This document shows, piece after piece, positions 1-51,407 of a stretch of 64,000 bases of DNA. This DNA is from Liolophura sinensis. Its lineage: Eukaryota > Mollusca > Polyplacophora > Chitonida > Chitonidae. The stretch spans positions 7,303,375-7,367,374 of the forward strand of contig NC_088297.1 in NCBI RefSeq assembly GCF_032854445.1, written 5' to 3'. The first letter of the stretch is position 1; the number at the start of each line of letters is the position of its first letter. The translations under genes were made by a program, and so were the position numbers. The notes beneath the pieces were generated by a model. The model did not search any database, was not told where the DNA came from, and saw nothing but the letters and a program-made list of their open reading frames with translations.

Positions 1-24
1 AGTTACTTTCTAATATTTAATGCA

Positions 25-587
25 GTTTTCGTCAAGGTAGATCCACTATTGATCACCTTGTTCGATTCGAAACCTTTATTCGCAATGGCTTCATGAATAA
101 CGAACATGTGGTGTCCATATTTTTCGACCTTGAAAAGGCCTACGACACTACATGGAAATATGGTATTTTAAAAGATCTCGCGGATATGGGTCTTAAAGGT
201 CGCTTACCTATATTTATATCCGAACTTTTATCAGATCGTCAGTTTAAGGTACGGGTGGCGTCCACTCTTTCTGACTCTTATGAGCAGGAAATGGGTGTAC
301 CCCAGGGCAGCATTCTATCACCAACTCTGTTTAGCATAAAAGTAAATATCCTAGCAAAAACATTAACATCGGGCACAGAGGGTTCTTTATACGTGGATGA
401 TTTCCTTATATGCTACCGAGCTAAGAATATGAATAATATCGAACGTCAGTTGCAGCTTTGTCTCAATAAGATCGAGAAATGGGCAACTGAAAACGGTTTT
501 AGATTTTCAACGTCTAAAACCGTCGGTATGCATTTTTGTAATAAACGGAAACTTCATCTTGACCCTGAGCTTAATTTTTTGTGGTGA
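25..587 (+). pseudogene. LINE reverse transcriptase fragment
   Basis: This open segment encodes palm and finger motifs of a non-LTR reverse transcriptase: an RQGRSTIDHL block in frame upstream of the first Met, FDLEKAYD, the PQG turn and the YVDD active site. It should continue into a thumb region reading VGETKFLGIIFDSK, but that part (about 590-663) lies in another frame, so a frameshift separates the two pieces near 580. The in-frame TAA at 18-20 stands where the family usually has a Gln codon. It is one part of the element at 1-2328 and is not expected to be active. Confidence 0.8.
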
Positions 588-666
588 ACAGGTTAAAATT
601 GTTGGAGAAACAAAATTTTTAGGTATAATATTTGATAGTAAACTATATTTTATACCTCATTTTTAA

Positions 667-2067
667 ATGCTTAAAGCTAAATGTACAAAGGCTCTCGATA
701 TAAATAAGGTCGTATATAGCACCGACTGGGGTGCTGACCGATCAGTTTTACTTAATTTATGTCGTTCTCTGGTGAGGTCTAAATTGGACTATGGATCCAT
801 CATTTACGGTTCCGCTAGGAAGTCGTACATTAAAATGTTGGATCCTGTTCATCACCAAGGTTTGAGGCTCAGCCTTGGTGCTTTTAAAACCTCACCAGTA
901 GAAAGTTTATACGTGGAGGCTTCTTTATATAACCGACGTATAAAACTTAGCCTTCAATACGCTAGTAAGCTTAAAGCTCATCCAACAAACCCTGCCTACG
1001 ACTGTGTTTTCAATCCATTATATGTAGACAAATATATTAAATGTCCTAACAAGATCCCTTCGTTCGGTCTTGGCATACGGGACCATATTGTGGGTGCTAA
1101 CATCAAGCTGGAGGATATAGCTCCGGTGTCTTTTCCGGAGTCTCCTCCATGGCTTCTTCCACAAACTAAACTAATATTTGATCTACGTAAATATAATAAA
1201 TCCAATACAAATCCTATTATAATTCAGCAAAGTTTTGCTGAAATCAAGGCCGATTATATGGATTATAAATTTATATATACTGACGGGTCAAAGGATGGGG
1301 ACAGGGTTGCGGCTGTGGCTGTCTTAGAGCAGCGGGTCACTTCTCTTCGTCTGCCACCTTCATCTTCTATCTTTTCTGCAGAGGCCAGGGCTATACTCCT
1401 GACCTTATCATATGTTTCCTCTGGACATGTACAGAGGGCCGTGATATGCAGCGACTCGCTGCCTTGCCTTTTGGCGATTCAGAATAATAAATTTAAAAAT
1501 CCATTGATACTTGAGATAATAGCCAAACACCGAAAACTAATTAAAAGAGGTAAAGATATTATATTCTGTTGGATGCCAAGTCACACTGGTATCCATGGAA
1601 ACACAGTCGTGGACAGGGAAGCGAAAGCTGCCTCATATAAACCTGTATCTCGGGTTAAAATCCCTTATACTGACGTGAAGTCTAATATTCTTAAATATAT
1701 TCGTCGCCTTTGGCAGGGTGAATGGGACTTGCATATCCATAATAAACTGCATGCCATTCATCTTATCATTGGCTATAATGCCTATACTTGTCTAATGTCT
1801 CGCAGAGACCAAGTAGTTTTAACGAGGTGTCGTATTGGGCATTCTCATCTGACACACAATTTCATCTTAGATGGGAACAGTGCTCCCAAGTGTGTTGGAT
1901 GTGCTGCTCAATACCGCATCAAACATATCCTGGTTGACTGTGTAGACTTTGTTCATGTTCGGCAAAAGTTCTACACGGTCACCTCTATATATGATTTATT
2001 TGATATCATCGCTGGCGATGTTGTCATAAATTATTTGAAGGCCATTGGCCTACATCATAAAATATAA
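667..2067 (+). pseudogene. LINE thumb, RNase H and CCHC knuckle segment
   Basis: A 466-residue open stretch forms the C-terminal half of the LINE polyprotein. Residues from about 205 to 325 make an RNase H domain with all four acidic positions and the PSHTGI(H)GN motif. A C-x2-C-x7-H-x4-C motif lies near residue 410. In the live element the RNase H would remove the RNA template and the knuckle would bind nucleic acid. The start Met is not a real start: it follows a TAA at 664-666 that interrupts the original frame. The stop at 2065-2067 looks like the natural ORF end because a 3' UTR and simple-sequence tail follow. Confidence 0.8.
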
Positions 2068-4611
2068 ATTTTAATTGTCATAAATATCTATAGATAAACA
2101 GTTATATACATATATATTTATACATGTACTATAACCCTGGTTTTCGAGTTTTTACTCTTATTTTTCTTTTAAACGATTTTAAACACCTCTGTACTTTTTG
2201 TTTTACTTTTGGTGTTCATATTATCATATCGGAAACCTTAATCGTCTCGCTTTTCCACCTTGTTCTCGCCACGATATGGCTCAAATATTACCGATGTGGC
2301 GTTAAGCCATAATCATTCATTCATTCATTCTATATACAAATGATGAGGTATGGTAGAACATGTTGGTAAAGCCATAGGGTTAGTGTTCGACTTACAAGTA
2401 AGACAATTTCTGAGTCAGTTAAATGATGATGGCCCAAAGATTGGACATCTTATGGGCTACCGAACGGCACATTAGTTTCAGCCCAAGGTTTAATACAGAA
2501 ATGTCCAGTCGCGATTGTACACACTACATTGTAGCTGATATCAATTAGCAAAGTAATCAGGCAAAAATTCGAAAGTGGAAAAAATGTTAAAATGCGCTTG
2601 CAAAGAAGCTAATCCGACGTATTTTGTGACGAGAAATCGAATGGTGCAAACTTGCTCTCCTACCAATATTTTGAACTATAGTGACGTTTCAAATATGGTT
2701 GACGTCAAAATGGTGTGCCAAGCAACGGATTTTTCTCCCTAGAAACCAGAGAAATTTTCCAATTTTTTTTATACTTGTCGATTGCTTACATTATTTCACG
2801 TCTTTTGGTACCTCAATTATGTGCATCAGTGCTAAATTGTAGTTTCCAGCAGAGACTGTATCAAGTACCTTGTATTTTCTATATACAAATGATGTGGTAT
2901 GGTAGAACATGTAGGGAAAGCCATTGAGTTAGTCTTCGACATAGAAGTAAGACAATTTCTGGGTCAGTTAAATGATGATGGCCCAAAGATTGGACATCTG
3001 ATGGGCTACCGAACGGCAGATTAGTTTCAGCCGAAAGTTTAATAGAGAAATGACCAGTCGCGGTGGGACACACCACATTGTATCTGATGTCAATTAGCAA
3101 AGTAATCAAGCAAAAATTCGAAACTGGAAAAAAGATTTAAATGCGTTTGCAAAGAAGCTAATCCGATGTATTTTGTGACGAGAAATCGAATGATGCAAGC
3201 CGCATTGCTCTCCTACCAATATTTTGAGCTGTAACGGCTTTACAAATATGGTTGACGTCATAATGGTGTGCCCAGTAACGGAGTTTTCTCCCTAGAAACC
3301 AGAAAAATTTTCTAGTTTTTTAACACTTGTCGATTGCGTACATTATTTGACGTTTTTTGACACTGCAATTATGTGCATCAGTGTTAAATTGTAGTTTTCA
3401 GAAGAGACTGTATCAAGTACCCTGTATTTTCCATATACAAATGATATGGTCTGGTAGAACACGTAGGTAAAGCCTTTGGGTTAGTCTTCGACTTAGAAGT
3501 AAGACAATTGCTGGGTCAGTTAAATGATCAAGGCACAAAGATTCGACATCTTACGGGCTGCCGAACGGCACAATAGTTTCAGCCGAAAATTTAATAGAGA
3601 AATGACCAATCGCGATGGTACACACTACATTGTAGCTGATGACAATTAGCAAAGTAATTAGTCAAAAATTCGAAAGTGGAAAAGTTGTTTAAATACCCTT
3701 TCAAAACAACTAATCCGACGTATTTTGTGACGAGAAATCGAATGGTGCACACTGCATTGCTCTCCGACCAACATTTTAAGCTCTAGCCGTGTTTCAAGTA
3801 TGGTTGACGTCATAATGGTGTGCCCAGCAACGGATTTTTCCCCTTAGAAACCAGAGAAATTGTCCAATTTTTTAATACTTGTCTAACGCTTACATTATTT
3901 CACGTCTTTTAGCACCGCAAATATGTGCATCAGTGTTAAATTGTAGTTTTCAGAAGAGACTGTATCAAGTACACTGTATTTTCTATATACAAATGATGTG
4001 ATATGGTAGAACATGTAGGTAAAGCCATTGGGTTAGTCTTCGACTTACAAGTAAGACAGTTTCTGGGTCAGTTAAATGATGATGGCCCAAAGATTGGACA
4101 TCTGATGGGCTACCGAACGGCACATTAGTTTCAGTCGAAAGTTTAATAGAGAAATGACCAGTCGCGATGGTACACACTACATTGTATCTGATGTCAATCA
4201 GCAAAGTAATTAGGCAAAAATTCGAAAGTGGAAAAATTGGTCAAATGCACTTGCAAAAAAGCTAATCCGACGTATTTTGTGACGAGAAATGGAATGGTGT
4301 AAACGGAATTGCTCTCCGGCCAATACTTTGTGCTGTGGCCGCGTTTCAAATAATGGTGTGCCCAGCAACGGATTTTTCTCTTTAGAAACCACAGAAATTT
4401 CTCAATTTTTTAACACTTTTCGATTGTTTACATTATTTTACGTCTTTTGGCACCGCAATTAAGTGGGTCAGTTAAATAATCATGGCCCAAAGATTGGACA
4501 TCTGATGGGCTACCGAACGGCACATTAGTTTCAGCCGAAAGTTTAATAGAGAAATGACCAGTCGCGGTGGTACACACTACATTGTATCTGATGCCAATTA
4601 GCAATGTAATC

Positions 4612-6469
4612 AGGCAAAACTTCGCAAGTGAAAAAGAATGTTCAAATGCACTTGCAAAGAAGCTAAACCGACGTATTTTGTGACGAGAAAACGAATGGTG
4701 CAAACGGCATTGCTCTCCGGCCAATACTTTGAGTGTGGCGGCGTTCTAAATTTTGTAGACGTCATAATGGTGTGCCAAGCAACGGATTTTTCTCCCTAGA
4801 AACCAGAGAAATTTTCCAATTTTTTAACACTTGTCGATTGCTTACATTATTTTATGTCTTTTAGCACCGCAATTATGTGCATGAGTGTTAAATTGTAGTT
4901 TTTAGAAGAGACTGTATCAAGTAGCCTGTATTTTCTATATACAAATGATGTGGTATGGTAGAACATGTAGGTAAAGCCATTGGGTTAGTCTTCGAGTGAG
5001 AAGTAAGACAATTGCTGGGTGAGTAAATTGCTCCTGGCCCAAAGATTGGACATCTGATGGGCTACCGAACGGCTCATTAGTTTTATCCGAAAGATTAATA
5101 GTAAAATGGATAGTCGCGATGGTACACACTACATTGTATCTGATGTCAATTAGCAATGTAATCAGGCGAAAATTCGAAAGTGGAAAAGTTGTTCAAATGC
5201 GCTTGCAAAGAAGCTATACCGACGTATTTTGTGACGAGAAGTCGAATGATGCAAGCCGCATTGCTCTCCGACCAATACTTTTAGCTGTAGCGGCGTTTCA
5301 AATATGGTTGATTACGGATTATACTTCTTAGAAACTATATAAATTTTCTTAATTTTTAACACTTGTCGATTGCTTATCAGTGAGAGAAATGCTGGGTCAG
5401 TTAAATGACTACTGTGTAGACACTGGAAGTCTTCTTGGCTACCGAACGGCACATTAGTTTTAGTCGACAGTTTGATATAGAAATGACCAGTCGGGATTCC
5501 ACACATTAAATTGTAGCTGATGTCAATCAGCAAAGTAATAAGGCAAAACTTCGCAAGTGAAAAAGAATGTTCAAATGCACTTGCAAAGAAGCTAAACCGA
5601 CGTATTTTGTGACGAGAAAACGAATGGTGCAAACGGCATTGCTCTCCGGCCAATACTTTGAGTGTGGCGGCGTTCTAAATTTTGTAGACGTCATAATGGT
5701 GTGCCAAGCAACGGATTTTTCTCCCTAGAAACCAGAGAAATTTTCCAATTTTTTAACACTTGTCGATTGCTTACATTATTTTATGTCTTTTAGCACCGCA
5801 ATTATGTGCATGAGTGTTAAATTGTAGTTTTTAGAAGAGACTGTATCAAGTAGCCTGTATTTTCTATATACAAATGATGTGGTATGGTAGAACATGTAGG
5901 TAAAGCCATTGGGTTAGTCTTCGAGTGAGAAGTAAGACAATTGCTGGGTGAGTAAATTGCTCCTGGCCCAAAGATTGGACATCTGATGGGCTACCGAACG
6001 GCTCATTAGTTTTATCCGAAAGATTAATAGTAAAATGGATAGTCGCGATGGTACACACTACATTGTATCTGATGTCAATTAGCAATGTAATCAGGCGAAA
6101 ATTCGAAAGTGGAAAAGTTGTTCAAATGCGCTTGCAAAGAAGCTATACCGACGTATTTTATGACGAGAAGTCGAATGATGCAAGCCGCATTGCTCTCCGA
6201 CCAATACTTTTAGCTGTAGCGGCGTTTCAAATATGGTTGATTACGGATTATACTTCTTAGAAACTATATAAATTTTCTTAATTTTTAACACTTGTCGATT
6301 GCTTATCAGTGAGAGAAATGCTGGGTCAGTTAAATGACTACTGTGTAGACACTGGAAGTCTTCTTGGCTACCGAACGGCACATTAGTTTTAGTCGACAGT
6401 TTGATATAGAAATGACCAGTCGGGATTCCACACATTAAATTGTAGCTGATGTCAATCAGCAAAGTAATA
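4612..6469. repeat. Direct 929-bp duplication inside the satellite array
   Basis: Bases 4612-5540 are repeated at 5541-6469 with a constant 929-bp offset. I found a single clear substitution (TTTTGTGACG in the first, TTTTATGACG in the second). Each unit is a composite of one full and one partial ~550-bp monomer, so this is a higher-order repeat much younger than the surrounding monomers. Confidence 0.85.
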
Positions 6470-6854
6470 AGGCAAAAATTCGAAAGGGGAAAAATTGTTT
6501 AATTGCGCTTGCAAAGAAGCTAAACCGACGTATTTTGTGACTAGAAATTGAATGGTGCAAACCGCATTGCTCTGCGACCAATACTTTTAGCTGTAGTGGC
6601 CTTTAAACATGATGACGTCCTAATTTTGTGACCAGCAACGGATTTTACACCTAAGAAACTAGAGAAATTTGCAATTTTCCAACACTTGTCGATCACTTAC
6701 ATTATTTCACCTTTTCTGGCACTGCAATTATGCGGGTTGGTTTTAAATTTTTTTTAAAACAGACTGTATCGAGTACGTTGTAATTTCTATTTGGAGATTG
6801 TGCGGTATGGTAATTACATGTAGGTAAAGCCATAGGGTTAGTCTTCGACTTAGA

Positions 6855-17367: not shown

Positions 17368-17432
17368 GCATGTATGTGCGTGTGTAATAGAGATTCAGTT
17401 TTAACGTGGCCGTGTCAGGTCTACTGCGCACA

Positions 17433-20400
17433 ATGGAAAACATCAAGGTGGTGGCACTCTTTGTGACAGCATGTCTCTGCTATTTGCGGTAAGTGTTCAT
17501 TGTCCTTTTTTTTAATTTTAAATATTTTATTTGCTATTATACGATAACAAGTACAGCTATTTTACTTATACCAAGTGCGTAAGAAGTAACTAGTGTGAGC
17601 TACATTCGAAAATGTGGTCATTGGTCTCTGTTACGAAGGTGTCTGATCCATTCTTCCCACCGAATCTCTACAGAAAAATTTTTTGTCGTTTACCAGTATT
17701 AATTTTTTTATTAGTGTTTTACGCCATACTTAAGAATATTTGACTTATGGATGGCGGCCAGCAATATGTTGGGAGGAAACCGGGGGAAAACCCACAACCA
17801 TCTCACGTACGTCAAACCTTCCCACGTAAGGTGGGAGAGGAAGCCAGCATGAGCGGGACTTGAACTCAGAGCGGATTTTTTTTTTAACCTGGTTTACATT
17901 TATTTACATATACATTTTTACTAAACCGTGTATCCCAAACACAATGCTTATCGAACGTTGCTCTTTGCGCTGTTCTACACTGGCTAGTCTCTAATAGTGC
18001 AAACTGGTCAGTTTTAATGTATATACGCTACATGTGGTCGGATATTCGAAAGCCTATTAACTGGTAAAAGCTGAGTACAATATCCACCACAAGTCACAAA
18101 AAGCAACGACATGGGGATGGAGTTATGGATCGAGCAAAAAGCGAGGACTTCTGCCGACTGCCCTGTGTATTACAACAAACGTGAGCCATCAAGAAACATA
18201 TGTGTTCAAATACGGAGTGTTAATATGCAGTTAACAGACCTTCAATATTCTACAAGTACGAGACATTATTCTACTTTAAATATATTGTTGGGCAACAAGC
18301 TAACTGATTAATATGTGCCTGATAGTACACGTGGACGAAATACTATTGGGCGCAAGGAATCAACAAAAGACAGCCTTTCTGAATTGTCTACATTTTCTCA
18401 TTCTGACTGCAGTTTCGAAAATCTTGTTTTTGTTCAAGGAATTGATAGCTTCGAAACTTCGGCATGTTTTCGTGAACTAAACATTACATTTTCAAGCAAT
18501 GCCATTGTTTTTCTTCTGTCATTTCTCGAAACAAGAAAACCCTACTTTCATAACTATATATATTGGAAATGATTATAAACAAATCAATTTACAGTCTCTT
18601 TGATTTCCCTTCAAACCGTAATGAAGTATTGTATTTGTATTTTTCGCAGACATGTGTCTGCCATTGAAGTGCCAGACGTTTACACGGAGGTGCACAAACG
18701 GTTAGAAGACCGGAGAATGAAATCCGTAGCTCCTGGAGAATTAGATCCGGAATATCGTAACGTTACTGTCGGCCTGTACTTAGTCAACATTGTACAGCTA
18801 AATACACGGGACAATTTTTTGGATGCTGTTTATTGGATTGTGCTGGTAAGGAGAGTATAATTTGACACTTTCATGTAACTGAAAAAGGCTATGTAGAGAG
18901 CTAATTAATCTCTTCTTCTCGATATCAAAAAGTACAGACTCACATGTAGATAAATACCCAAATGATTTAATGTGTGTACAATAGAAGCGCATATACCATT
19001 ACCTTTTTTTTTAACCATAATACACATTTCTCGGTACGTAAACAATTATTTCGTTCATTTGGTCGTCGTCGCAATAAATTGTTGAAAACCACTCGCCCGC
19101 CACCAGTATGGTGCGCATATTTATAGATCACACGAGGGAATGTTCGGCTGTAACTTCCCAATGTCAGTTTCCTCCACCCATAAAACTGAGAGCCATTGTT
19201 CTCTCGTGAAAAAATGTCGTCGTCAACATATATGGCATCCGTGGTCGTTTATAGGAATGCATAATCGATTCTGACTGGCTAGTGTGAGAGATGGGTAAGT
19301 CCAGTTATGTTTAACTTGAATTTTAGGTATTGTGCATTTTATCCTAGAAGGCCCCGTCTCCAGTGTTAGCCAATCAGCATCGATTCTGTATTGGGCAAGA
19401 GGAAATCAAAGTAGGCATCACAAGAAGTGGACCACTTAAAACTATGTATAAATATACTTTCATTTATTTTTCTTTACCTTTTTGTAAAGAGAGTTAAAGG
19501 CGCTCAAATGTTTGGCTTCTTAGGTGGGATTTATGGACCATACCATCAGAGGTTAGGAACTCTGAAGTCACAGGAAGTTTATCCAACTATAATCACGACA
19601 GTGAATGTGGAATAACTCTTTTTACCCGTGAGTGAATGATTACTGAAATAATTTTACCAAAAATTCATTCCTTCTGGTAAACATCCGGAAAAATTTGATG
19701 TGACGTCAGAGTTCATAAATACCGTTAGTATTGCTCATAAAACCCATCATATTATTCAAATATTTTAATGCCTTTCAACACTCTCAAAAAATCTGAAAAA
19801 AAATAAATGAAAGCATTTTTAAGCATAGTTTTCAGTTGTCTTTATGATGGACTTTACTCTGTATTTTAGCTTTCTTTTAGTTTAAGAAAATTGAGACGCT
19901 ATAAAATAAAGCAGGGCAAGTCACACTATCCCCCTACTTGCACATCCTGTAAAATTAAGCCGCATAAACATTCACAGGGTTTAAGTGTTTACCAATTAAG
20001 ATTTATTTATTTATTTATTTGATTGGTGTTTTACGCCGTACTCAAGAATATTTCACTTATACGACGGCGGCCAGCATTATGATGGATGGAAACCGGGCAG
20101 AGCCCGGGGGAAACCCACGACCATCTGCAGGTTGCCGTAGGACCTCCCCACATACGGCCGGAGAGGAAGACAGCATGAGCTGGACTTGAACTCACATCGC
20201 CGGCATTGGTGAGAGATTCCTGGGTCATTACGCTGTGCTAGCGCGCTAACCAACTGAGCCACGGAGGCCCCCACTTAAGATTGAAAACCATACATATCAT
20301 TGCTTTATGCCCTACTATATCATAAGTCCTCAAGCAATACCATTTCCCCAACAAAAATACCCAACAAAGTCCTGCGTTGATCACGTAATAGATAAAATGA

Positions 20401-22144
20401 GTAATTATTTACTTATGTTTGCTTTTTTTTAATTTAAGTTTCTTCACTGATATTTTTATTGATGGATTCATTTCCCCATTTATTCCTTTATTTGAAACTC
20501 CATCTGTCTTCTGATGTACACAAGGAAGCGTTCTGGTTCTGTATTTTAGAAGAATAATGACCCTCGGCTGACATGGAACCATACTTCCCCTGAGACCATG
20601 GTGTTGTCTAACTCCAAGATATGGATTCCGGACATTGAAATTTTCAACGGGTTAGTGGTCCATAACAAAACGTTACTTGTCGAAAGAGATGCTTAACTAA
20701 AATGTTATCATATGTTAGATATGGACATTTAACTATGTTGACAGTAACAACCATCAAATGCTTAAAATGCTCGTTTGTGACCTAAAATGTCGTAAATGGC
20801 TGAGTTATCCATTTGTCTGGTTATAATATTTCTGATTATGATATGATAAAGGTGTTTTCAAGCATGTTAAACAACTATCATGGCATTCGACTGGGAAAAA
20901 ATACCAGTTTTAGCACCAGATCTAATAATTTATGACCTGTCTGGTCTGCAAATACACTTATATGGCAAATGCAGTTCCCATAATATTTTATGCTTATGCA
21001 TGGTAGATGTGACATCTTAACAAGAATTATCGCTATGTGGCCGCTTTCTGAGTTTTTATAAAATGATACATATAACATCTTCTTCAAAGAAGACAGGCCT
21101 AATTTGAAAGTTCTATGTTATCTGTTAATTTAGGTACTGACGTTTTAATAAACGGTGCAAAAGTTAATAGGCTATATATATTTAGAAGGAAAATAACAAA
21201 TCGTGGGACAAAAACACCATTTCCCAAATTACCTCGCCTCACCTAAGCTGCAACCAGAGAAGAGACAGGTGATGCGATGGAGTTTGTGTCATCAGTCAGT
21301 GGTCTGAGCGCGATCAGAATAGAGTGCTCGCTTTTTAGTAGTCTTCTCCGTTTTCATGTTAACAGTGATACATGCAGCAAGTACGGCAGGCAACAAAATC
21401 AGGCATGAGATAATCAGGCATGACATATAGTAAACGTGATATGCCAGCCCATGACGATATTCTGATAGAAGTCATGACGTACCATCTATCACATTATACT
21501 GACAATGCACAATGGCAGCCCACTTGATCACAATATACGTAGCACATGACATAGTTTGAAGTCAGGGAACTGCCAACTGACGCTTTACTGCTGTTTAAAG
21601 CCATGCCAAATAACTTTCTTGATTTATTATTATGTCTTGAGCGATTCTACCGAATTGTATGGGTAACGGTGGCATTATTTTAAAAGAAAAGCTCAACTGC
21701 AAAACTCATTTCTCTGCTAAATTAGTTTGTGGTTACAATTAGAACGAAGTCAAATATGATTGGAGTAATAATATTTCTAATTTGAATTGAAGGTTAAACA
21801 AAATGGAATACCTAACGGTTCACGACGCCATTGTGGGGAAAGAGGGCCACGTGGTTCGTGTCCCTGCCGTCAAGTTTCGGGTGCCATGTGCAGAAGAGGA
21901 CAACAACAACATAACGTGCGGAATCATGCTGGGGTCGTGGATGTATAATACGAACGTACTGCAAACAGTGGTAGAGGGAGAAGGGGTCGACCTGCAATTC
22001 CTCAACCCAAACCCAAAGTGGAGTGTGGTGGGGTCTTCTGCAAAGCAAAATGAGATATCCTTCAAAGTGGCAGGAGCAGACAGCAATTTCTCTCATGTTG
22101 AATACAGCCTAACATTCCAAAGTAGGGACAAGTGTCGTAAATAA
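17433..22144 (+). CDS. Secreted acetylcholine-binding-protein-like (Cys-loop ligand-binding) protein, four exons
   Basis: Exons assembled by splice sites and phase: 17433-17488, 18650-18845, 20550-20650 and 21793-22144 (stop TAA). Donors are gtaagtg, gtaagg and gttagt; each acceptor ends in AG; phases 2, 0 and 2 match throughout, giving 234 residues. The ATG (cacaATGG) follows an in-frame TAG at 17388-17390. Residues 1 to about 23 form a signal peptide. The rest is a Cys-loop receptor extracellular domain: VTVGLYLVNIVQL (57-69), the WNHTS strand (93-97), WIPDI loop A (109-113), a Cys loop C150-C160, and GSW loop B (W167). It stops after YSLTF with no membrane helices, as molluscan and annelid AChBPs do. 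These soluble homologues bind acetylcholine at subunit interfaces. Here loop D Trp aligns to N86, loop A Tyr to F116, and the loop C Cys pair is absent. N-glycosylation sequons lie at N56, N94, N157 and N216. Ligand uncertain. Confidence 0.85.
17709..17876 (-). mobile_element. Family A SINE fragment in intron 1 of the binding-protein gene
   Basis: The fragment runs from TAGTGTTTTACGCCATACTT through GGCGGCCAGCAATATG and CCTTCCCACGTAAGG to GGACTTGAACTCAGAGCGG. The tRNA-like end is missing, so this copy lacks its promoter. Confidence 0.8.
19998..20274 (-). mobile_element. Family A SINE, near full length, in intron 2 of the binding-protein gene
   Basis: A full tRNA-like head and AT-rich tail are present. 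The duplication TTAAGATT occurs at 19996-20003 and 20275-20282. It is antisense to the host gene and ends about 275 bp upstream of exon 3. Confidence 0.85.
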
Positions 22145-22229
22145 CATCTGTTTAGTATATTCATAACATCTGTTTAGTATATTCATAACATCTGTTTAGT
22201 ATATTCATAACATCTGTTTAGTATATTCT
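22141..22229. repeat. 22-bp tandem repeat, four copies, spanning a stop codon
   Basis: The unit ATAACATCTGTTTAGTATATTC is repeated four times with no differences except at the last junction. The first copy begins at the stop codon of the binding-protein gene, so the TAA (22142-22144) is part of the repeat and the other copies lie in the 3' UTR. Confidence 0.95.
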
Positions 22230-25200
22230 AACTATTGCATGTACAGCACAAAATTTTAGTCAATTTTATGTTCTTTGTTTTCACTTTTTACAAAAATTCC
22301 TTTAAGAGGTTATTTAACTGTGTAACCAAAAGCATAAATATTCTCTAAAAACAAAAACACGTTAATCACTTTGGTGAAAAACAAAGCGCAATAACCTTAC
22401 CAACAGCCGCTGTGAAGATCATTTAATTATGTAAAGAACTTTCTTTCAATTTTCTATAACAATTTGACATTAATCGTGCGTACGTTTTATATATTTTTGT
22501 TTGTCACTTTCTTGCTATTATTGTTTTTGCCCTTTGTGCTGAGTGTTTGTTATATTATTATGTAACATTATATTATACATGACTTTTGAAGCAAAAACAA
22601 TAGTTTAATGTCAACAGATGAGATTGCAATGTACATGCACAGGTTTCTACCACATTGGCGTTAGAACGAACTCTTGATTAGACCTACAAAGTTTTCGCTA
22701 AAAGTTACCAATTTTAGTCCATGCATACATAACGCTACCGAATTATCTAATACATGTAAAAGGTGTCTCCAGTTTATTTCTTCAAGATAGATGGGACATG
22801 TACATGGTGTCTCCAGTCTACATTTCCAGGTCATACACTCTAAGAAAGGTTGCTTCTTCAAGGCACTCGGTTAAGTTCTTTGGCATGCTTCACTGGTGGA
22901 ACCAAAGTTAGAACCAAAGAAAGAACCAAATGTAACCCTTGTTTTCGCTGCGCCGAGTTCTTCGACCTGCCTCCATGCGCAAACATGGTCTGTAGACCAC
23001 TAAAGTGAGTTGTCACTGACCCGCACTGTGCTTTCGGCACTGTTGATTTTTCTCCACCCACACCACCAGAGGTTAAGGCTGAACCAGAGCTACCTAACGA
23101 CCGGTACCTATAGCGAACAGTTACGGTTAGATTTCAAACCTTTTCCAGAGACATTTATTGCTTACCCATGCAGTAGTTATCCAAATATTTTGGATTATAT
23201 TATATGTACACCAACAGGTTCACAAGAAAACCAATCATGAGAGCAAGAAAAACGCGCGGTTCTCTGAAGAACCATGAAGAACCATATTCTGAGAGTGTAT
23301 GGTACACACACATGGTGTGTCCAATTTGTAGGGTGAAATCAAATTGTACTTGTATTTGGTGTGTAAAGTCAATAGTGGTAGTTTAAACGATGCACGTATA
23401 TAGTGTATCCAGCCTTACAATGTACATACTGTTATCAATCACCACCAAAAAGAATTTTACACCTACATAAGGAAGCCATTATGGTGATCGATCGATCGAC
23501 CGAGTTAACTCCAAAACACAACATTTTGTCCCTCATTTTGCAAGGCAACAAAGTGTCATTTTGTAAATAAAATAAGCTTTGCCACTTTGCCACTTTCCTG
23601 TGAGAACAAGCCAGTACAATATTTTAACTTGCAATGTTCCATTGTTGCGCATAATCGATTCGGAATCAAAGAGAGAACTCACTTTTTGTCAGTTAAGTCA
23701 AAATGGCGGACAAGACGCCCCAGAATCCGCGAGGCCCATTTAAAATCCGTGATTTCGCCCTTCTGTTAACAGCTTGTGGACAAAAAAAATCTTCAGCTAT
23801 TATTGTCAGCCATAATGATTTTCATTGAATGTAATGACTATATAAACATGTTGAATGCGCATGTGTAAAAGAATAAAAATAGTTTTCTATAAGATTTTGT
23901 GTCGGTTTGTCGCCCAATCAAAGTCAATGATTTTATGTAAACCCAACCCCCAGTACCAGCTTCAACTCTTACTGACAACAAAAGTACCCCTGATGAGTGT
24001 TACAAATGTAAGCCTATTAAAATACGCGTTATAGTGTAATCCCTAATTAAATGATTATATCATTTAGTTTTTCAAAGGCAATTATTGAAAAATCTTTCGG
24101 ATTTTATTTCATTGAAATATTTCTATGACATATTGGTTATTTTAAAATATTTTAGAATCATTGTGTAATAAAAATAATGATATTAAATCATTCCAAGACG
24201 GTTTATTCACGGAAATAACTGAATCATGAAGTTTAATGCATGTAAACATGTAATTTTCACTTGATTTAACCTTCCCTGTGGTTTTCTGAATGTACTGACT
24301 GGAGATATTTCTTGGGGCACTTGACTTATTCCAAATTTAGTACATATCTTTGCCTGTATTTTACAATTTGTTCCCTCGTCGTCACATGACTGATAAATTG
24401 TGAAGTACGATATAAAACTCGATATCAATGTCCAGTTTTGGAGAACACAATGGCCGGTTTTAGTCCAGCCGAGCATCGCATTGGAGTGAAGCGTGTTACA
24501 TGGCTTTCACATAAAAGTCCAGTTTAGGCACGATTGTAATTGTTGATGTCCAAAAATGTTTCTTGGAAAGAGTTTGTCGTAAAACATCCAAACTTGGTAT
24601 CACCTTATCTATGCCCGGTCAAAAAATAACTGTGCATTAAATCGTGAAGTATTCACAGAACATGTTACGTATTAAATAAAACCCAAGGATTGACCTTTAA
24701 ACCACGTGTGTTGAGTGTTTACGACTCTGCATACTCTGATTTGGTATCATTGGAGAATCATACTTAAACCATGCAACAGTCGTTGTTCATTGTGCAGTCT
24801 TAACGGCATTACGACGCCGGTCTGCTGACTTCAATGAGACTCAGATGCACGGAGCAACATATAACTTGAAAAAAAAGGTATTTTTAAACCAATGGAGACA
24901 TAGATAAATATTTTTGGCCTGCTCATTGACAGCTGGTCAAGCGTCAGTTTTATTTTTTTTTGGTTCAGAATTTTTTTTCATATATATATATATGGTCTCT
25001 TATTAAAGACAGCGTCCAAATCTGGATGAAATATTCTGGCTTCCAAGTGAAGCCCGTCCACGTGAATATAGAATCCACAATTAAAAGATATTTCTCAATC
25101 GACCGATGACAGTCCGATAAGTGACACGCTGTAGGACGATGGTTTATTCCTCAACTGCCTATGAAGGTGTAACTTCTCAGGGCTGACGGGTTGACAGTAG

Positions 25201-39212: not shown

Positions 39213-40307
39213 TCATACCCACGATTGCTGCGTGTTTGACTCTATCTTCATACAGTTCACATACACGTTCCCCTTCTTCATCTTGTAACGAAACAGCATT
39301 CGTAGTTCCCGCCTAAAACAGGCACCCGTGATGCTGTACAGAAAAAAGTTCACGCAGTAGTTAAGGTAATACATTGCCCGCACAATCGCCACCACCCCCG
39401 GGGATACTGGCTTTCCGCTGAAAGCAGTCCGGGCCCACACCCCGAAGTAAGGTAAATTAAAGGCGATGAAACAGAGGGAAATGACGAGCAAAATGAGCGT
39501 AAATTCCAGCCGTATGACGCTCTCCTCTGTGAGCACACTCCGATCGCGGTACTTTCGGTTACGCTGAACTAATTTGTTGATTATAAACATATTCAACGCT
39601 GTAATGAGTATGAAGGGTACAAGGGTGATTGTCACGCCGTAGATGATGTCTAAGATATGAGAGACATGTTTCAAGTACGGGTTGCTAGTGCAGACATGTA
39701 CGTCCTTGGCGACAATGTACGAGCCACTCATGATGGGTTTGTACATGAGAATAATGGCGGCAACAGCAACTAGGCCAAACACAATTCTACGGCTGACAGA
39801 GGTGGAGATACTTTTCCGACGCAGCGGATGACACACGGCGATGTAACGCTCTACGGTAAAAATAACCACAATCCACGAAGAGAGAAAGCGCGAGACATAG
39901 CTCAGGTACAGTGATACATGGCATACTCCATTGATTTCCAGGAAGGCTACAGTCAGATGACCCGGAAGTATATGTAGACCTCTTTTTAACCATTCTACCA
40001 TGACGTAGGCGACTAGCGTTACGAGGTCAGATATGGAGAGCGCGGCTAGGTAGTTACTGGCGGACAAAGAGCGCATGTTTCGGGAAGTAAATACGCTTAG
40101 TGACAGAGAGTTGCCCACAATGCCAATCAGCAAGATGACAGGGGTGAGCCAAGCGTAAAACATCCGCCCTAGGCCTGGAGGAATGCCGGATGAGGCCTGC
40201 GGAGGAAAGATAGCTTGCGAGGCGTTAGAATGATTTCCCAGCGCCAAGTGCGTGAACTGTGTGTCGTCAAAGCCATCCATGCTGAAGGTTGCGTCGTCGG
40301 AATTCAT
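39213..40307 (-). CDS. Class A (rhodopsin-like) peptide G-protein-coupled receptor
   Basis: The 364-residue product has seven membrane segments: TM1 about 52-73 (GNS), TM2 84-104 (LAALSISD), TM3 129-152, ERY 153-155, TM4 173-193, TM5 215-244, TM6 267-290 and TM7 303-325. C129 and C206 can form the extracellular disulfide. TM6 has CFIAFNLPYF and TM7 has NFFLY in place of NPxxY, as in many invertebrate neuropeptide receptors related to the FMRFamide/TRH groups. Sequons lie at N25 and N28. The tail ends QSWV, a possible class I PDZ ligand. The same frame extends 35 codons upstream, but a strong acceptor (TTTCTCTTCTCTGTTGCAG, AG at 40321-40320) starts the exon at 40319, 12 bases before the ATG at 40307. 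So 40307 is the likely start, and an upstream non-coding exon is expected. It would signal through G proteins at the plasma membrane. The ligand cannot be named. Confidence 0.92.
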   Translation of the reverse strand: MNSDDATFSMDGFDDTQFTHLALGNHSNASQAIFPPQASSGIPPGLGRMFYAWLTPVILLIGIVGNSLSLSVFTSRNMRSLSASNYLAALSISDLVTLVAYVMVEWLKRGLHILPGHLTVAFLEINGVCHVSLYLSYVSRFLSSWIVVIFTVERYIAVCHPLRRKSISTSVSRRIVFGLVAVAAIILMYKPIMSGSYIVAKDVHVCTSNPYLKHVSHILDIIYGVTITLVPFILITALNMFIINKLVQRNRKYRDRSVLTEESVIRLEFTLILLVISLCFIAFNLPYFGVWARTAFSGKPVSPGVVAIVRAMYYLNYCVNFFLYSITGACFRRELRMLFRYKMKKGNVYVNCMKIESNTQQSWV

Positions 40308-43300
40308 CTCGTGAAATGCCTGCAACAGAGAAGAGAAAATGATATTTAGTAGTCCGACTTGGGAAGAGGGTAATAAGCTTGACATTAGCCATATTGGGAA
40401 ACGTCTGTGCACTTGATCGATTAGTATAAGACCCCCTATGTGACGGTGTGTGGTACGATTAGATTGATAGGAGGACGACGGGAATGGCCCATGGCCTGAA
40501 TACTTGTGTGTGTGTCCATACGTTTGAGGTGTGGACGGCTTTCAGGTTAAACCGATTGTTAGTGGCCCCTTTATTCCCAATGGCGTTTCACTTTTAACTA
40601 TATGTTTTTAAGTCCAGTAAGCCCAATGCCAAGAACAGCTATGCCGTCTACAAGTTCAGGTTGGCGGGAGATATGTTTCTATTATATGATTAAAATGGCC
40701 CAAAATTTGGACGAGGCATACTGAAATTTTCATCTAGATGCATCGAAAAACGCGCAATTATAACTAGAGAAGTATTTTGTTCTGTCAGTGAGAGATTTAT
40801 GTATGGAATGACAAATAAATCAGTTCGCTGACTGACCGTCACTGATTAGGGAATGAATGAATTAATCAGAGAATAGACGTAGAAAAACTCTTGAAAAAAT
40901 GCCGGGTTAATGCATTAGGCTGGGTAATACAGAGGCTTGCATAATGTGGAAACCGTGCGATATCTTAAAATTGGCGAGGCCGTGGGTCATCAGTGTATAT
41001 ATTTCAGTAAGGGGCTATTCTTCTGTCATGGCTAATGTTTTTTTCGGTGCATCTTAGCCATGGAGACAAATCCCAGCTTAGAGAGATGCCTAAATCGAAA
41101 TCCTATCACTTCTTGCGTAAGCTCTGTTCTGTTTGCAAAGGAAAGTCAACTTTGTTTGGATTAGAATTATTTGTGTTTGAATTTTGTGGTATACCCAACA
41201 ACATTTCACTTATACGACATTATTATGGTGATAGAAACAGCTTTATTCATCTGCTTAGTGCTCGTCAACGGTATCTAAATATTTAATAATGATATAGAAG
41301 AAGAATTTTTTCAACCATACACTATTTCAACACTAATAATGAATATCCGAATATATATATATATCCCGATGTCCTTTAACAATAGTAGAGCTAGCATAAG
41401 TCTGATTTCTAATGGCCACATCGGACAAATCCAAGAACACGTACTAAATGCTTCCATGCGCTAATTATGAGCATGATATATAGGTTTGAACACTGTACAT
41501 GAATTTTATTGGTGAAAGGCACGTGTGTCGCATTAACTGCAGTTTTACTCTCCGGCGAATTTAAGACATTTGGATAATTACACGTAAAAACTGACATATC
41601 TATAAAATGATAAGCCCAAAACCAGATCTGTAATCCAATAGATATATTTTCTTTTTATTAACACCGGCGGGCCTAGTAAATTCGATTAAAAGCTGTATCT
41701 CGAATTAAAGCGCCACATTGTGGACCCTGTGCTTTGTTTGGTTTGTACCACTTAGGTAATTGATCCAAGGTCTTTGAGGGAAAAACGTGGGCGAGTGCGA
41801 TATGAAGGTGCTTATGGAGTGGAAGAGAGATATGACTAAATCATCATGACTGCTAATCGAGAAGCCGTAAACCCAACGGTAGCGCATAGTCAATGACAGG
41901 ATGGTTTTCATGAGGTCACTTGTTATAAACAGCAGCTTTGCATTATTATGCCTTCACCGTAAATTTTCATCTACATCCTCATAAATTGTCAAATGTATTA
42001 AGCTACCTCAAGGACATGTTGGTTAAAGCAAGTTAAACACTCCACATTACTGAAATAAAATTTGACCGAGCGATTTTTTTTTAAATTGCATGAAAAAGCA
42101 GTGACTTATTTTTTCGTTCCACATTTATTTATCTTACACAGTGTGCAAGGACAATTTCTGTTTGATTAATCAGCAGCATATTTCGTACAAATTTACACAA
42201 CAGATCACCAGTTGTTGACTTTTGCAGACGATATGATTGAAATACCAGGGTCGCCAATTACTGAAATGTACCACTCCTGTCAAAAAACGTGTCACTAGCG
42301 GTCGATGTGTTACAACATGGTCAATCAGTTATGGTAGGGCAGTCGATATCAACGCTGTTGACAACTTCCATCTCATTTAAAACACTTTACAGTGTGTCCT
42401 AGCTATATACAGAGTAAACTGAAAGAGGCCACTGGGCCACCGCCAACACTGATTTCTGCGTAAAAATAAGTACCTTTTGACACCTACAGAGAAATCTGAA
42501 TTATAAATCTCTTTCTCTCGAAGATTGGTTAGGCTGTACATTACAGAACTTGGCGACGGACTGTCTAGATATTGGAAGCCATGTGTACATCTGCCACTAA
42601 TTGCTTTATTCATGCGGTAAATAATGTGAGCCATATATACACATATATGCAATCATTTTCACTAGTATTTGTCTTCGATAACCCGCAGTTCTTATGACGT
42701 TGGGAATGAAGTGTTGGAACCAATTGACCCCCCATACTACAGTTTCTCTGTGTGTCATAACTCATATCCATAGAAGATAAAAAGAGCAAAGGATTTCATG
42801 TTGCCTCTCCATGGAGAGTGTTATCCTAGTGCCCCCGAAAGCCTTTTATCGACTAATTGCCTTATACACGTACAAGTTAGCCATTAGTCTCAAACGCTGG
42901 CTTCCATGTATATTTGGTGTGTGACCAATCTTGTGGAGAAGAAGTCTGCAATAAATGGAATTTGGACTATAGCATGGTCTACTTTGGTGTCATGATTGTT
43001 GGAATCACGCCTGTACGGAAGTCTATGAGCCTTATTTTAAAACAAACCACACGATTTATCTTCATTGCAAATGCAGACTGTCAGCACAATGTCCATCAAT
43101 TTATCTGTTAACCTAAGTTGTCTTGCTCTAATCTTACCTACCCTTTATGGATTTCCAGTACGCCTCCAGTACGTAAAGATAAGTCTTTATGATTAAGATT
43201 TATCGTTTGGAAGGTCGTGCGATTGCCCAGATCGATTCCTGTATATTTCCTCATAAAACATCGCAATCTTTCTACATATATTTGCTATTCTTGTAAGTCA

Positions 43301-47070: not shown

Positions 47071-48104
47071 CGACAATAGGCTGTTCTTCAAATATGAATA
47101 AAAAAAAAACAGCATGTATTCGAAAAAAAAAAGAACAATATATTTATATCTATGCACAGCTACTGTGTTGAGTGAGTATACCACTCTGGTGCTTGTTTCA
47201 CATTTGTCAAGGCGGGAAGGCAGCGTGAACAATTGATATGAAACATTGCATGGCTATCACCATCACCATCATGTGAAGATATATTGAAGAAAAGGAAAAT
47301 GAGTGTTTCACAGCTCTCTGAATACAACACTTGTTATTCCAAAAGCGTGGGTGGGGTTTAGAGAACGAACATGATGTGCAGAACAAAACGCAGATTAATT
47401 GAGCGGAAAATTGAACATTAAACCCAAATACATCTTTTTTGCTAGTTGACGGACTTCCCAATTATTCCGTCTGGGGGTATCTTGATCGATAACTTCAGTC
47501 AATAAGCTGACATACACGTCGATATTTTCTTTTTCTCTTCGCCACACACCGTACAAATGTTGTTGGTGTTCGTGTCCATATATAACCGTGTCCTTCCGTA
47601 AAGCGACACGCGACTATTATGTAGTTTTAATATAAAAAAAATGGCCCATATTTGACACTGGTGGGAAACACCTCGCATATTGTACACAAAAGATTTATCT
47701 ATATTCAAGTCAGTAAACCCTTATCCAGTTGCCCTGAATATATTATATGCAATTCGTATTCCATTGAAAAGATGAGGATCGGAGCTCAATTTCATATCCA
47801 AAACAGAAGCAGAGAGTGAAATAAGAAACTTACAAGGCGTTTTGCTTATATACTCTTTCTTGTTTCCCCGTTGCTTAAAGCGAACAGTAACAAAAGCTGG
47901 CCACTTATACCATTGTCACCTTTATGAATGGAAGAATTCTTAGCACACTTAACAAACTCACACCACATTTTTCTAGCCATGCAGCTAAAAGTCATAGAAA
48001 CAGAGTAATTTCTTTTAAACTGGTAAAATGCACTCATGACAGTGTACAGTGATCTCAGTTTTAAGCGTCGAGTAGACCAGTCCTTGTACAGTTTAAAGCT
48101 AACG

Positions 48105-49823
48105 ATGGCTACGGTACACGTGTTGATGTTGTGTTACGTTCTAATTGCGTTTTTTCACCAAACGTGGTTCTGTGGCTGGGGGTCAATGGGCCCACTGAGC
48201 CCATACCCTCAGCGCGCCATGTTTTCAGTGCGGGATGGTCATTTCCTGACATCGTGTCGGCAATATTCCCGGTTATAGGGATTCTTGGTCACTGTTCTGA
48301 CTGGTCATCAATATGTCGACAAACGTGATATAATGATATGGCTCAAACAAATTTCGGCAGACATCGCCAAAGTTTGCATTGTTTTGCTCGATCAGCCTAA
48401 TTTTAAACAGAATTCATCCAGAATATACGAACAAGTTTGAGTCATACTGCGTACATTTCATTCCAGTGCTGGTATAGAGTTACAAAAGTTAATGATCATG
48501 CAACTAAGGATATATATTCTTCCTATATGTCATTGCTGCTAATATCAAGGCGTGAGGCTTCACATTTTGAACGTGCATGTGTTCTTTCAAAACAGTATAT
48601 ATTTTATGACTTTCGTCCTAAACTCTTTGTGATTTATTACATTCCTTGCCGTTTCCAGTCGGGAAATCCTGTAAACTCCAGCCCATCATCATCTTGTAAA
48701 TTATTCCGTGGTATTGATATGATGTACTGGACACACTCAGAGCGACGTAGACAAGTGATTGATAGGCTAGTGATGATAGTCTATCCGCTCGTCTGCTTCC
48801 GTGCGAAAAATTAATGCTCTAACCCAAATCAAGCAAATCTAAATTAGCTACGATGGTTCTTTATGACTTGACGTTCAACAAAAGAGGATACACCAAGTGC
48901 TGTTCGGCCTGTGGACAGTATAATTTGACAGGGGAAATTTCAGCAATGCCTTTTCGATGCAGCATAGGTAAATATTTGTCATGCCATTAGCACGCTGTGC
49001 TCATTCATTTGAATCGATTCTACACTGTACTCAACAAAACATTAAGAATTACTTAAATGGCGGCCATCAAATGTGTAAGTTGAGAAACCTAAATGTCATA
49101 AAGGAAACCATTTCACGTAGACGGGTACCCAATGAACAAATGTTTTTCAATAGCAGCATTAAAGCTTAGACAAACGTACGTAGTTCCGTTTGAGTGTGTT
49201 GTGGACACATGGAGAGCGGTAAGTGTGCTCCTTTAGAGCAATCTCTTACTGAAGTACATAAATATGGGAGCTGCAAATCTCCTTGTCGTTAGCATCATCC
49301 GGAATGTACAAGTATATCAAACATGAGCTGAAAGCAGTCGGACTTCGGCAGCTGTAATTCACATCTGCCATGACTGTGATTACCAATAATTGGTTGAGGG
49401 GAGTCTTATTCTAAGTATGAGAGGAAGACGAGAAAGAGAACGAGGCTTTTGGCGGTTACATATTTCGCGTACCCTAATACAGATCAAGTGCTGAGGTACA
49501 TCGTCTAAAGTTATTAGCTAAACGTGCCTACGTGTACATGTATGTCCACGGGGTTGTCTTCGCATCACTGTTCATAAAAACCCGTACAAAATGAATAACA
49601 TTAGTTACTCCCCCACCCATCCTGCCTACTCCTCTTTTGGGAACATCACCATGATTGTCTCTTTTGACATTGATTTGCAATTGTATTTTGCTGCAGTTAT
49701 TCTTTGTTTCCAAGACAATAACAATTGTCGGCTTCATGGGAATGCACCTATAAACAAGCAGCAGACCTAACTTCTAACTGTTTCAACTGCTGGAGTAAGG
49801 AGTTTCAGGATATCCCTGCTTGA
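48105..49823 (+). pseudogene. Disabled copy of the cysteine-rich secreted protein gene
   Basis: Matches all three exons of the gene at 54026-55740: exon 1 from 48105, exon 2 about 48659-48967, exon 3 49697-49823. It differs by several disabling changes: one extra base between the signal-peptide codons and the first donor (GGCTGGGG against ATCTTAG); TCGG where copy 2 has the acceptor TCAG; TAA at 48812-48814 where copy 2 has TAT; a one-base loss near 48836; and a one-base loss in exon 3 (ATGGGAATG against ATGGGGAATG, near 49741). It keeps 12 bases before the second donor that copy 2 has lost. Either it died after duplication, or the sequence has several errors. Confidence 0.55.
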
Positions 49824-50904: not shown

Positions 50905-50961
50905 AATGAAAGATTATGGCGTAACGCCACATTGGCAATATTTCTGCCATATCGTGGCGAG
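50905..50961 (-). mobile_element. 5'-truncated LINE 3' end (57 bp) in copy 1
   Basis: GATTATGGCGTAACGCCACA followed by TTGGCAATATTTCTGCCATA and TCGTGGCG is the complement of the 3' end of the LINE at 1-2328 (about 2267-2315). TTTTTCTCAAAGAA before and ATTTTGTCAAAGAAG after suggest a ~13-bp target-site duplication. The insertion splits the second of two related units: unit A about 50650-50760, unit B about 50855-51030. Confidence 0.75.
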
Positions 50962-51407
50962 ATTTTGTCAAAGAAGCCTCAGCATGACTGTCGATGATTG
51001 GAAATTCTTCCAAAGATAATAGCGAAGCACCGACAGCATCCGTGTTGTTTTTTCTTTTCCTTTCTGTATCAGATTTACAGCCTTTTGTGTTTATTATATT
51101 TGTAGATGGATTTATTTTTTTCTTTGATCAGATTTTTTTTCAGAATACAGGAAGAGCGGCCCATTGTCAAGTTACCTTTATTTACAGTTTCATTCTAACT
51201 GTTCATGTAAATGCTTTGAAAATAGCAAAGTACAACACCAAGGCTTAGGCAGAATAAAGTTTTTAAAATGCAGTGAAGTTACACGAGTGTCACATGAAGG
51301 TCTTATATGCAGTGATGCAATTTATGAGACGTTACTGGCCCAGAATTACTCAATCTACAAAACTTACGGCACATGGACTATAACCAGAGCACCGACGACA
51401 GTGTGAC

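Follow-up and report, generated by a model that had tools for sequence, protein, structure and literature searches.

An acetylcholine-binding protein-like gene without the loop-C cysteine pair in the chiton Liolophura sinensis

Acetylcholine-binding proteins (AChBPs) serve as the standard soluble substitutes for nicotinic receptors. In the AChBP of Lymnaea stagnalis, which we take to be the protein of PDB entry 3wip, the loop-C disulfide touches acetylcholine. As is predicted for the protein described here, it is a secreted single ligand-binding domain (LBD) without a membrane part. Its aromatic box is described as Trp53, Tyr89, Trp143, Tyr185 and Tyr192, with Trp53 as the cation-pi partner of acetylcholine (PMC3956608), and the same tryptophan contacts nicotine (PMC3066128). 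From Biomphalaria glabrata, the soluble AChBP1 and AChBP2 are described in a paper which calls the loop-C disulfide of AChBPs strictly conserved and in which both proteins keep it (PMC3423370). Tyr-to-Phe replacements are already known from this pair, at loop A in AChBP1 (F92) and at loop C in AChBP2 (F193), according to the same paper. In a search of one collection of papers, we found no work treating an acetylcholine-binding protein in a chiton.

We analysed a stretch of 64,000 nucleotides from Liolophura sinensis (the window), in which an earlier note had read a gene of four phase-matched exons coding for an AChBP-like protein. The gene is real as read. Its four exons are intact, and splicing of the window letters yields an open coding sequence of 705 nt for 234 residues, with all introns starting with GT and ending with AG (Table 1). 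An in-frame stop at 17388 lies upstream of the start codon. The complete Cys-loop LBD that had been proposed was confirmed by a profile search of the 234-residue product: Neur_chan_LBD (PF02931) is its single domain (residues 35-227, E 1.4e-20, 74.1 bits against a cut-off of 26) and is covered from position 6 to 213 of 216. Among sequences of solved structure, AChBPs score highest, with receptor chains behind them, and the best database match is Lymnaea AChBP (PDB 3wip, 1uw6 and others). A signal peptide, also claimed before, is indicated by hydropathy and inspection of the sequence. The 19-residue mean hydropathy reaches 1.86 at residues 6-24, and no comparable hydrophobic stretch starts beyond residue 30 (maximum 0.81). 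The signal peptide likely ends with HVSA and would be cut before I24.

Table 1. Features of the AChBP-like gene, in positions of the window.
Feature	Position	Strand	Remarks
Exon 1, 56 nt	17433..17488	+	start codon and most of the predicted signal peptide (MENIKVVALFVTACLCYL); donor gtaagt
Intron 1, 1161 nt, phase 2	17489..18649	+	GT..AG
Partial SINE-like repeat in intron 1	17699-17868		blastn
Exon 2, 196 nt	18650..18845	+	end of predicted signal peptide, N-terminal region, first strands, loop D W81
W81 codon	18834-18836		exon 2; equivalent of Lymnaea W53
Intron 2, 1704 nt, phase 0	18846..20549	+	GT..AG
SINE-like repeat in intron 2	20010-20270		blastn
Exon 3, 101 nt	20550..20650	+	holds N86 and loop A F116
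N86 codon	20553-20555		exon 3; equivalent of Lymnaea W58
F116 codon, loop A	20643-20645		exon 3; equivalent of Lymnaea Y89
Intron 3, 1142 nt, phase 2	20651..21792	+	GT..AG
Exon 4, 352 nt	21793..22144	+	Cys loop, loop B, loop C, stop TAA 22142-22144
Cys loop C150-C160	21887-21919	+	exon 4
Sequon N157-I-T within Cys loop	21908..21916	+	also in C2 and C3 paralogues
W167 codon, loop B	21938-21940	+	exon 4
F208 codon, loop C	22061-22063	+	exon 4
Sequon N216-F-S, loop C tip	22085..22093	+	adjoins box residue F217
F217 codon, loop C	22088-22090	+	exon 4
C232, third Cys of mature chain	22133..22135	+	near C-terminus

A membrane part, which the earlier note had reported missing, was not found in the window. 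Among the matches listed from the genome search, none to the membrane domain PF02932 falls within it, and the only one on its contig is 0.85 Mb away (C3:6478152). A profile of our own, built from 37 membrane pieces of the channel-type genes of this genome, gave a best E of 1.8 over 2941 ORFs of the window, compared to 1.3e-18 for a positive control locus (L008) that had been left out of the build. An in-frame TAA directly follows the last domain strand, where receptors enter the first membrane helix, and no [FY]P[FY]D motif, as found in channel-type genes, occurs in the Cys loop. Each of these observations speaks against further exons that would make the gene a full receptor subunit, of which only the ligand-binding half had been read. 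Although two of its introns are placed as in three channel-type genes of the genome, as such a subunit might be expected to show, we find this possibility hardly credible.

Upon alignment to Lymnaea AChBP, aromatic residues were found at five of five box positions (W81, F116, W167, F208 and F217). W81 and W167 correspond to W53 and W143, while the three box tyrosines of the Lymnaea protein are phenylalanines. The earlier note had taken N86 for a replaced loop D tryptophan and had concluded that the pocket is rewired there. However, two alignments agree that N86 matches Lymnaea W58 and that the ligand-contacting W53 is retained as W81, so that N86 was rejected for this position. The exchange of Tyr for Phe in loop A (F116) and the conserved loop B Trp (W167) had been assigned correctly, and the adjacent cysteine pair of loop C is indeed missing. 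V210 is found at the position of Cys187, and A211 or A213, depending on the alignment, at that of Cys188; neither alignment puts a cysteine in the loop. Loop C is two residues longer than in Lymnaea AChBP and carries a sequon at its tip. The two proteins share 26% identity (52/197) and differ further by a Cys loop of 9 rather than 12 residues and by the extra C232.

Our results support the view that the protein is AChBP-like and secreted, has no membrane part and carries an altered loop C, and acetylcholine may not be its preferred ligand. Weaker binding of acetylcholine is to be expected because the protein lacks three Tyr hydroxyls and the disulfide and has a longer loop C that may be glycosylated. 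As all five aromatic side chains are kept, the altered pocket probably still binds a small molecule, but, with the cysteine pair lost, it may just as well have ceased to bind ligands. Alpo4, an orphan Cys-loop receptor of Alvinella, is described as having no loop-C cysteine pair, a Phe in loop A (F103) and conserved Trp residues in loops B and D, and its box holds CHAPS; unlike the window protein, it is a full membrane channel and keeps both loop C tyrosines (PMC10338036). A natural soluble member with five aromatics, no disulfide and three Tyr hydroxyls fewer would make these contributions separable without engineering.

The genome contains at least eight LBD genes beside which no membrane exon was found, a count from picked LBD pieces among those listed that have a receptor-type last exon; the window gene is itself absent from the listed pieces, and other divergent genes may be missed. 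LBD pieces at about profile positions 45-121, apparently from another receptor class, are outside the sample, the eighth gene came from following up a loop-A-exon match, and the gene models do not extend to a further LBD set at C4:6.032-6.034 Mb. In addition to the window gene, the set comprises C2:18.48, C3:1.37 (a model without signal exon), C3:0.92, C3:0.90, C4:6.03, C4:6.08 and C3:25.45 Mb. All seven have a Cys loop of 10 residues and, like the window gene, no [FY]P[FY]D motif. They differ from it in that the three C3 copies near 1 Mb and both C4 copies keep the cysteine pair, that the C4 pair and C3:25.45 Mb bear a hydrophobic C-terminal tail, and that C3:25.45 Mb is devoid of the loop B Trp.

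The closest paralogue is located on another chromosome (contig C2) and also has no loop-C cysteine pair. Its exon plan (56/193/101/355 nt) matches that of the window gene (56/196/101/352 nt) and 88 of 231 aligned residues (38%) are identical, which argues that the window gene is more than a chance assembly. The aromatic box of the C2 copy is incomplete, with Y80 in loop D and C208 at the first loop-C position; in the two copies, the box may thus be subject to drift and not to conservation. The stability of the window protein is not assured either, because at the position of N86 both Lymnaea AChBP and the C3:1.37 Mb paralogue retain the Trp that is replaced here. This replacement, and an end branch of 1.3 compared to a median of 0.68, might point to an unexpressed or decaying copy. 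Against this, the reading frame, the splice sites, the sequons and the Cys-loop cysteines are intact despite the divergence from the sister, and frames 2 and 3 of the spliced sequence carry 14 and 12 stops, respectively. We therefore consider such a copy highly improbable.

The earlier note had also emphasized a Cys loop of 9 instead of 12-13 residues. The length is correct (C150-C160, the cysteines of the Cys-loop disulfide being in place) but it is not peculiar to the window gene. Among 47 rows compared, the Cys loop holds 9-10 residues in 7 membrane-less genes, 12 in Lymnaea AChBP and 13 in 38 of 39 channel-type rows; the 39th (L045) also has 13 when read by eye. With the eighth membrane-less gene, which has 10, all eight are in the range of 9-10, and a short Cys loop was dismissed as a mark of the window gene. 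Cys-loop length has been described to vary among AChBPs (PMC4569296). The cysteine pair is missing in 3 of the 8 membrane-less genes and in 20 of 38 parsed channel-type rows, so that its absence is no rarity across the wider family.

Phylogenetic trees were computed from one exon (about 100-120 columns) with a single outside AChBP, that of Lymnaea. C3:0.92 and 0.90 Mb, for which the models are not fully spliced, entered with their last exons only; C2:5.89 Mb (L037, two pieces with a split exon), L049 and L008 were left out. Two control trees were computed, one with the Cys loop removed and one with the long-branched eighth membrane-less gene added. The window gene and the C2 copy are sisters in the main tree (98/89) and in both controls (97/89 and 99/90, respectively). 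Together with Lymnaea AChBP and the cysteine-pair AChBPs of the chiton they form a set of six rows (99/93; controls 95/90 and 99/88). This grouping places the window gene in the AChBP clade by descent, apart from the receptors. A common origin for the membrane-less LBD genes as a whole is not shown: their split from the channel-type genes (98/96 in the main tree) is found in only 44% of the bootstrap trees without the Cys loop and in 53% with the eighth gene, and the AU test for one membrane-less clade gave p 0.45 (Cys loop removed).

In one animal, AChBPs with the cysteine pair can be compared with a sister pair that lacks it and with copies that may be tethered to the membrane. Members with and without the pair occur in the same supported set in all three trees, and nicotinic subunits without the pair are described as possibly forming mixed channels with pair-bearing ones (PMC4569296). 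By analogy, the window protein might be a non-binding partner subunit that spaces or tunes the sites of cysteine-pair AChBPs (C3 genes) in mixed rings. As AChBPs are described as homopentamers (PMC3423370), we regard this as quite unlikely.

It seems to us somewhat more probable than any doubt we hold against it that the gene, one of two divergent AChBP-clade copies in this chiton (window and C2), codes for a soluble binder or carrier. The protein would be secreted and assemble as a ring of five subunits; wherever two subunits meet, F116, W167, F208 and F217 of one face and W81 of the other would form a pocket. It would most likely act in the body fluid, on a small and probably cationic or hydrophobic ligand. 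Duplication may have freed the window copy from a role in acetylcholine binding, which the cysteine-pair copies may keep. C232 has a counterpart in the C2 paralogue (C231), but neither the C3:1.37 Mb model nor Lymnaea AChBP has one. This unpaired cysteine is expected on the face of the C-termini and could join two rings by disulfides; C-termini and Cys loops are described on one face for the Biomphalaria proteins, where the di-pentamers of BgAChBP2 are probably disulfide-bridged (PMC3423370).

Double rings are also reported for the ACCBPs of Pinctada and Haliotis, which, compared by description, are secreted, glycan-bearing molluscan AChBP relatives that bind amorphous calcium carbonate, presumably via their glycans (PMC3423370, PMC5379566). 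The window protein could likewise be a biomineral-fluid protein that forms glycosylated single or double rings in the extrapallial fluid or the haemolymph. There it would bind amorphous calcium carbonate and hold back the growth of crystals in the plates, and the pocket would be secondary. Its four N-glycosylation sequons (compared to three in the C2 copy and one each in the C3:1.37 Mb model and Lymnaea AChBP) and its spare C-terminal cysteine would fit. However, ACCBP and its oyster relatives are described as having two LBDs (PMC5379566), while the window protein has one, and a scan of the window for a second LBD-like ORF was negative (next best E 1.6). With 28 D/E and 24 K/R, the precursor lacks a strongly acidic character, and the main text of a paper on the Cryptochiton radula, which deals with teeth rather than plates, never mentions acetylcholine, neurotransmitter or AChBP. 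We consider a function of this type unlikely. Slightly less doubtful, yet still tentative, is a more elaborate version of the soluble carrier: loss of the loop-C disulfide may have founded a separate soluble AChBP branch in chitons with diverging copies, the window copy being a Phe-lined, glycan-capped five-fold ring that serves to carry, in body or shell fluid, some ligand that is not acetylcholine; C232 would perhaps join two such rings back to back.

Some further features are shared with the Biomphalaria genes and proteins. AChBP2 has a glycan site in the Cys loop, as has the window protein, and exon 1 of the AChBP genes ends inside the signal peptide, again as in the window gene (PMC3423370). 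The exon pattern of Biomphalaria is called unprecedented except for intron 1 in that paper, whereas in the window gene two further introns match those of channel-type genes. The exon that codes for loop A is 101 nt long in the window gene and its C2 sister, whereas the C3:1.37 Mb paralogue has 110 nt there, and so do three channel-type genes.

The AChBP-like gene of the window (17433-22144, plus strand) is, judged from its sequence, intact, codes for a lone ligand-binding domain (LBD) and groups with the acetylcholine-binding proteins (AChBPs). The four exons proposed in the earlier note were borne out, the spliced 705 nt being open to a single stop. All three introns (1161, 1704 and 1142 nt) show GT..AG, and their G+C content is 36-38% versus 46% in the exons. 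The 234 aa protein has a hydrophobic start closing with HVSA, followed by a single Neur_chan_LBD domain, for which the profile match (E 1.4e-20) agrees with the proposed completeness. Hydropathy over 19-residue stretches peaks at residues 6-24 (1.86), and no stretch starting beyond residue 30 exceeds 0.81. The introns contain two copies of a roughly 260-base SINE-like element, which occurs at 20010-20270 and nine other places; full or partial, the other copies are 77-89% similar to the copy at 20010. A 22-base unit (4.2 copies, 22141-22232) sets in one base ahead of the stop codon and occupies the beginning of the presumed 3' UTR.

A genome search (632 contigs, 609.46 Mb) with the membrane-domain model PF02932 gave no match inside the window among the matches listed; the sole one of these on the same contig (C3) is at 6478152, 0.85 Mb away. 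PMC11068029 describes the assembly (609.5 Mb in 632 scaffolds) under the species name Liolophura japonica, since corrected by its authors to L. sinensis (PMC12441733). A second profile was made from channel-type genes of the genome, using 37 first-to-third membrane pieces. Its best score among 2941 ORFs of the window was only E 1.8 versus 1.3e-18 for the positive control, a locus (L008) left out of the profile, in agreement with the proposed lack of a membrane part. With this profile, stretches fetched around the relatives on C2, C3 and C4 gave nothing below 0.1.

Among solved structures, the 27 top scorers are all named AChBP or AChBP/alpha7 chimaera (best 3wip, 7.1e-21). Entries named soluble acetylcholine receptor (Aplysia) come next, starting at 6.8e-14, and receptor chains begin with 2bg9_E (2.3e-12). 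The closest gene in the same genome, at 18.48 Mb on C2, shares 88 of 231 aligned residues. It was modelled with exons of 56/193/101/355 nt, also giving 234 aa; its first exon was the sole candidate to pass a filter for a hydrophobic start plus donor. Three C3 genes (1.37, 0.92 and 0.90 Mb) end at the place matching the window gene and keep YDCC in loop C, and two C4 genes (6.03 and 6.08 Mb) keep SCC. An eighth membrane-less gene was found at C3:25.45 Mb (no membrane exon within the 6.5 kb fetched). It has a Cys loop of 10. Its pocket, without the loop-C pair and with Arg in place of the loop B Trp (GSRRSD), is altered further than that of the window gene, which lies on C3 too. The C3 genes L003 (G000:C3:924203-924511) and L004 (904997-905305) are near-identical AChBP genes with the cysteine pair, separated by about 19 kb and with one residue different in their last exons.

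The main tree has 47 rows, namely the last ligand-binding exon, a short one, of the window gene, of 45 other Liolophura genes and of Lymnaea AChBP as the single outside AChBP. In 39 rows, called channel-type, the reading frame continues into a membrane segment. The window and C2 genes group together (98/89), then with the three C3 genes (99/84) and then with Lymnaea (99/93). One branch (98/96) parts the seven membrane-less genes and Lymnaea from the channel-type rows. When the Cys loop was left out, the window/C2 pair (97/89) and the Lymnaea-containing set (95/90) were retained; bootstrapping gave the membrane-less/channel-type split in 44% of trees, and the C4 pair was not firmly inside the membrane-less side (AU p 0.45 for one clade). 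Adding the eighth gene retained the pair (99/90) and the six-row set (99/88), with the split at 53%; this gene has an end branch of 2.95 and no starred place. These trees argue that the window gene belongs with the AChBPs by descent.

The loop A exon measures 101 nt in the window and C2 genes; in the C3:1.37 Mb gene and all three channel-type genes checked it measures 110 nt. Its boundaries fall at matching residues in all six. Thus two introns are common to these chiton AChBP genes and receptors, whereas Saur and colleagues describe similarity to non-molluscan receptors only for intron 1 of Biomphalaria AChBP genes (PMC3423370).

The Cys loop of 9 residues, singled out in the earlier note, is indeed short compared with the 13 of channel-type rows (38 of 39 by script, the last by eye), but it is not peculiar to this protein: in each of the eight membrane-less LBD genes found, 9-10 residues separate the cysteines and [FY]P[FY]D is absent. 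A shorter Cys loop thus goes with being membrane-less. Variable length is already known for AChBPs, with 16 residues described in a spider (PMC4569296).

As described in PMC3956608, the acetylcholine box of Lymnaea AChBP consists of Tyr89, Trp143, Tyr185, Tyr192 and the neighbour's Trp53, against the Cys187-Cys188 bridge. Aligned with the C2, C3 and Lymnaea proteins, the window protein has W81 at W53, F116 at Y89, W167 at W143, F208 at Y185 and F217 at Y192, so the box is kept with five aromatics but three hydroxyls are gone. The supposed replacement of the loop D Trp by N86 was a misplacement, as N86 corresponds to Lymnaea W58; the loop A Phe, the loop B Trp and the missing loop-C pair (V210-A211 in its place) were read correctly. 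V83 stands at Q55, and I131, V139 and V141 at R104, L112 and M114. A second alignment (seven sequences) agreed on the columns of F208 and F217 and placed the two extra loop-C residues differently. The C2 box is less complete (Y80, Y115, W167, C208, Y215), and the aromatic cage is thus not conserved across the pair. Two Biomphalaria AChBPs are described with Phe at loop A or at one loop C position (PMC3423370), one each. The annelid orphan receptor Alpo4, described with CHAPS in its box (PMC10338036), likewise has a loop A Phe and no Cys pair.

By analogy with the family, the protein would be secreted as a five-fold ring with a pocket at every subunit contact. The residue changes suggest weaker acetylcholine binding and a more mobile loop C, perhaps covered by glycan. 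Sequons are at N56, N94, N157 and N216; that of the Cys loop is shared with C2 and C3. C232, with a counterpart in C2 (C231) and none in C3 or Lymnaea, might provide a disulfide link on the C-terminal face. We lean towards a protein that still binds a small molecule, probably other than acetylcholine. The main rival, a mineral role like that of ACCBP, which binds amorphous calcium carbonate, seems rather improbable; ACCBP is described with two such domains (PMC5379566), which counts slightly against this role. As the loop-C pair is absent and binding only putative, the name acetylcholine-binding protein should not be applied by function. In the literature collection searched, no paper combined acetylcholine-binding protein with chiton. 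In Crassostrea gigas, PMC6896357 reports the pair in only 33 of 132 nicotinic-type genes, and mollusc departures from the usual domain plan as mostly domain loss or duplication; unreported pair-less soluble domains may well exist elsewhere.

Three of the relatives have a hydrophobic C-terminal tail directly ahead of the stop (see table). By inspection these tails look like GPI-anchor signals, so the proteins may be membrane-tethered. The C4 pair has kept the loop-C cysteines, and RD(D)A(V/I)SN is common to both its members; the C3:25.45 Mb gene has a linker containing Thr/Pro.

Ligand-binding-domain genes with hydrophobic tails elsewhere in the genome, and features of the window
Feature	Location	Strand	Remarks
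LBD gene with tail (L005)	G000:C4:6028432-6028728	+	Cys loop 10, no membrane-domain match
LBD gene with tail (L006)	G000:C4:6079619-6079912	-	Cys loop 10, no membrane-domain match
LBD gene with tail (L009:3203-3706)	G000:C3:25452702-25453205	-	Cys loop 10, no membrane-domain match
Non-LTR-type retroelement remnant	window 21-2067		two open frames: reverse transcriptase E 2.4e-21, RNase H E 8.1e-8
Overlapping direct-repeat array	window 2328-6854		units ~0.4 to 2.4 kb, 78-89% alike
Open frame between stops, 442 aa	window 39213-40541	-	rhodopsin-family GPCR, 7tm_1 E 3.2e-22
3.4 kb duplicate	window 47825-51184, 53748-57154		direct order, 88% identity

The two 3.4 kb copies contain ORFs of 135 and 144 aa, neither with a match in Pfam. 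The direct-repeat array carries related ORFs on the minus strand.
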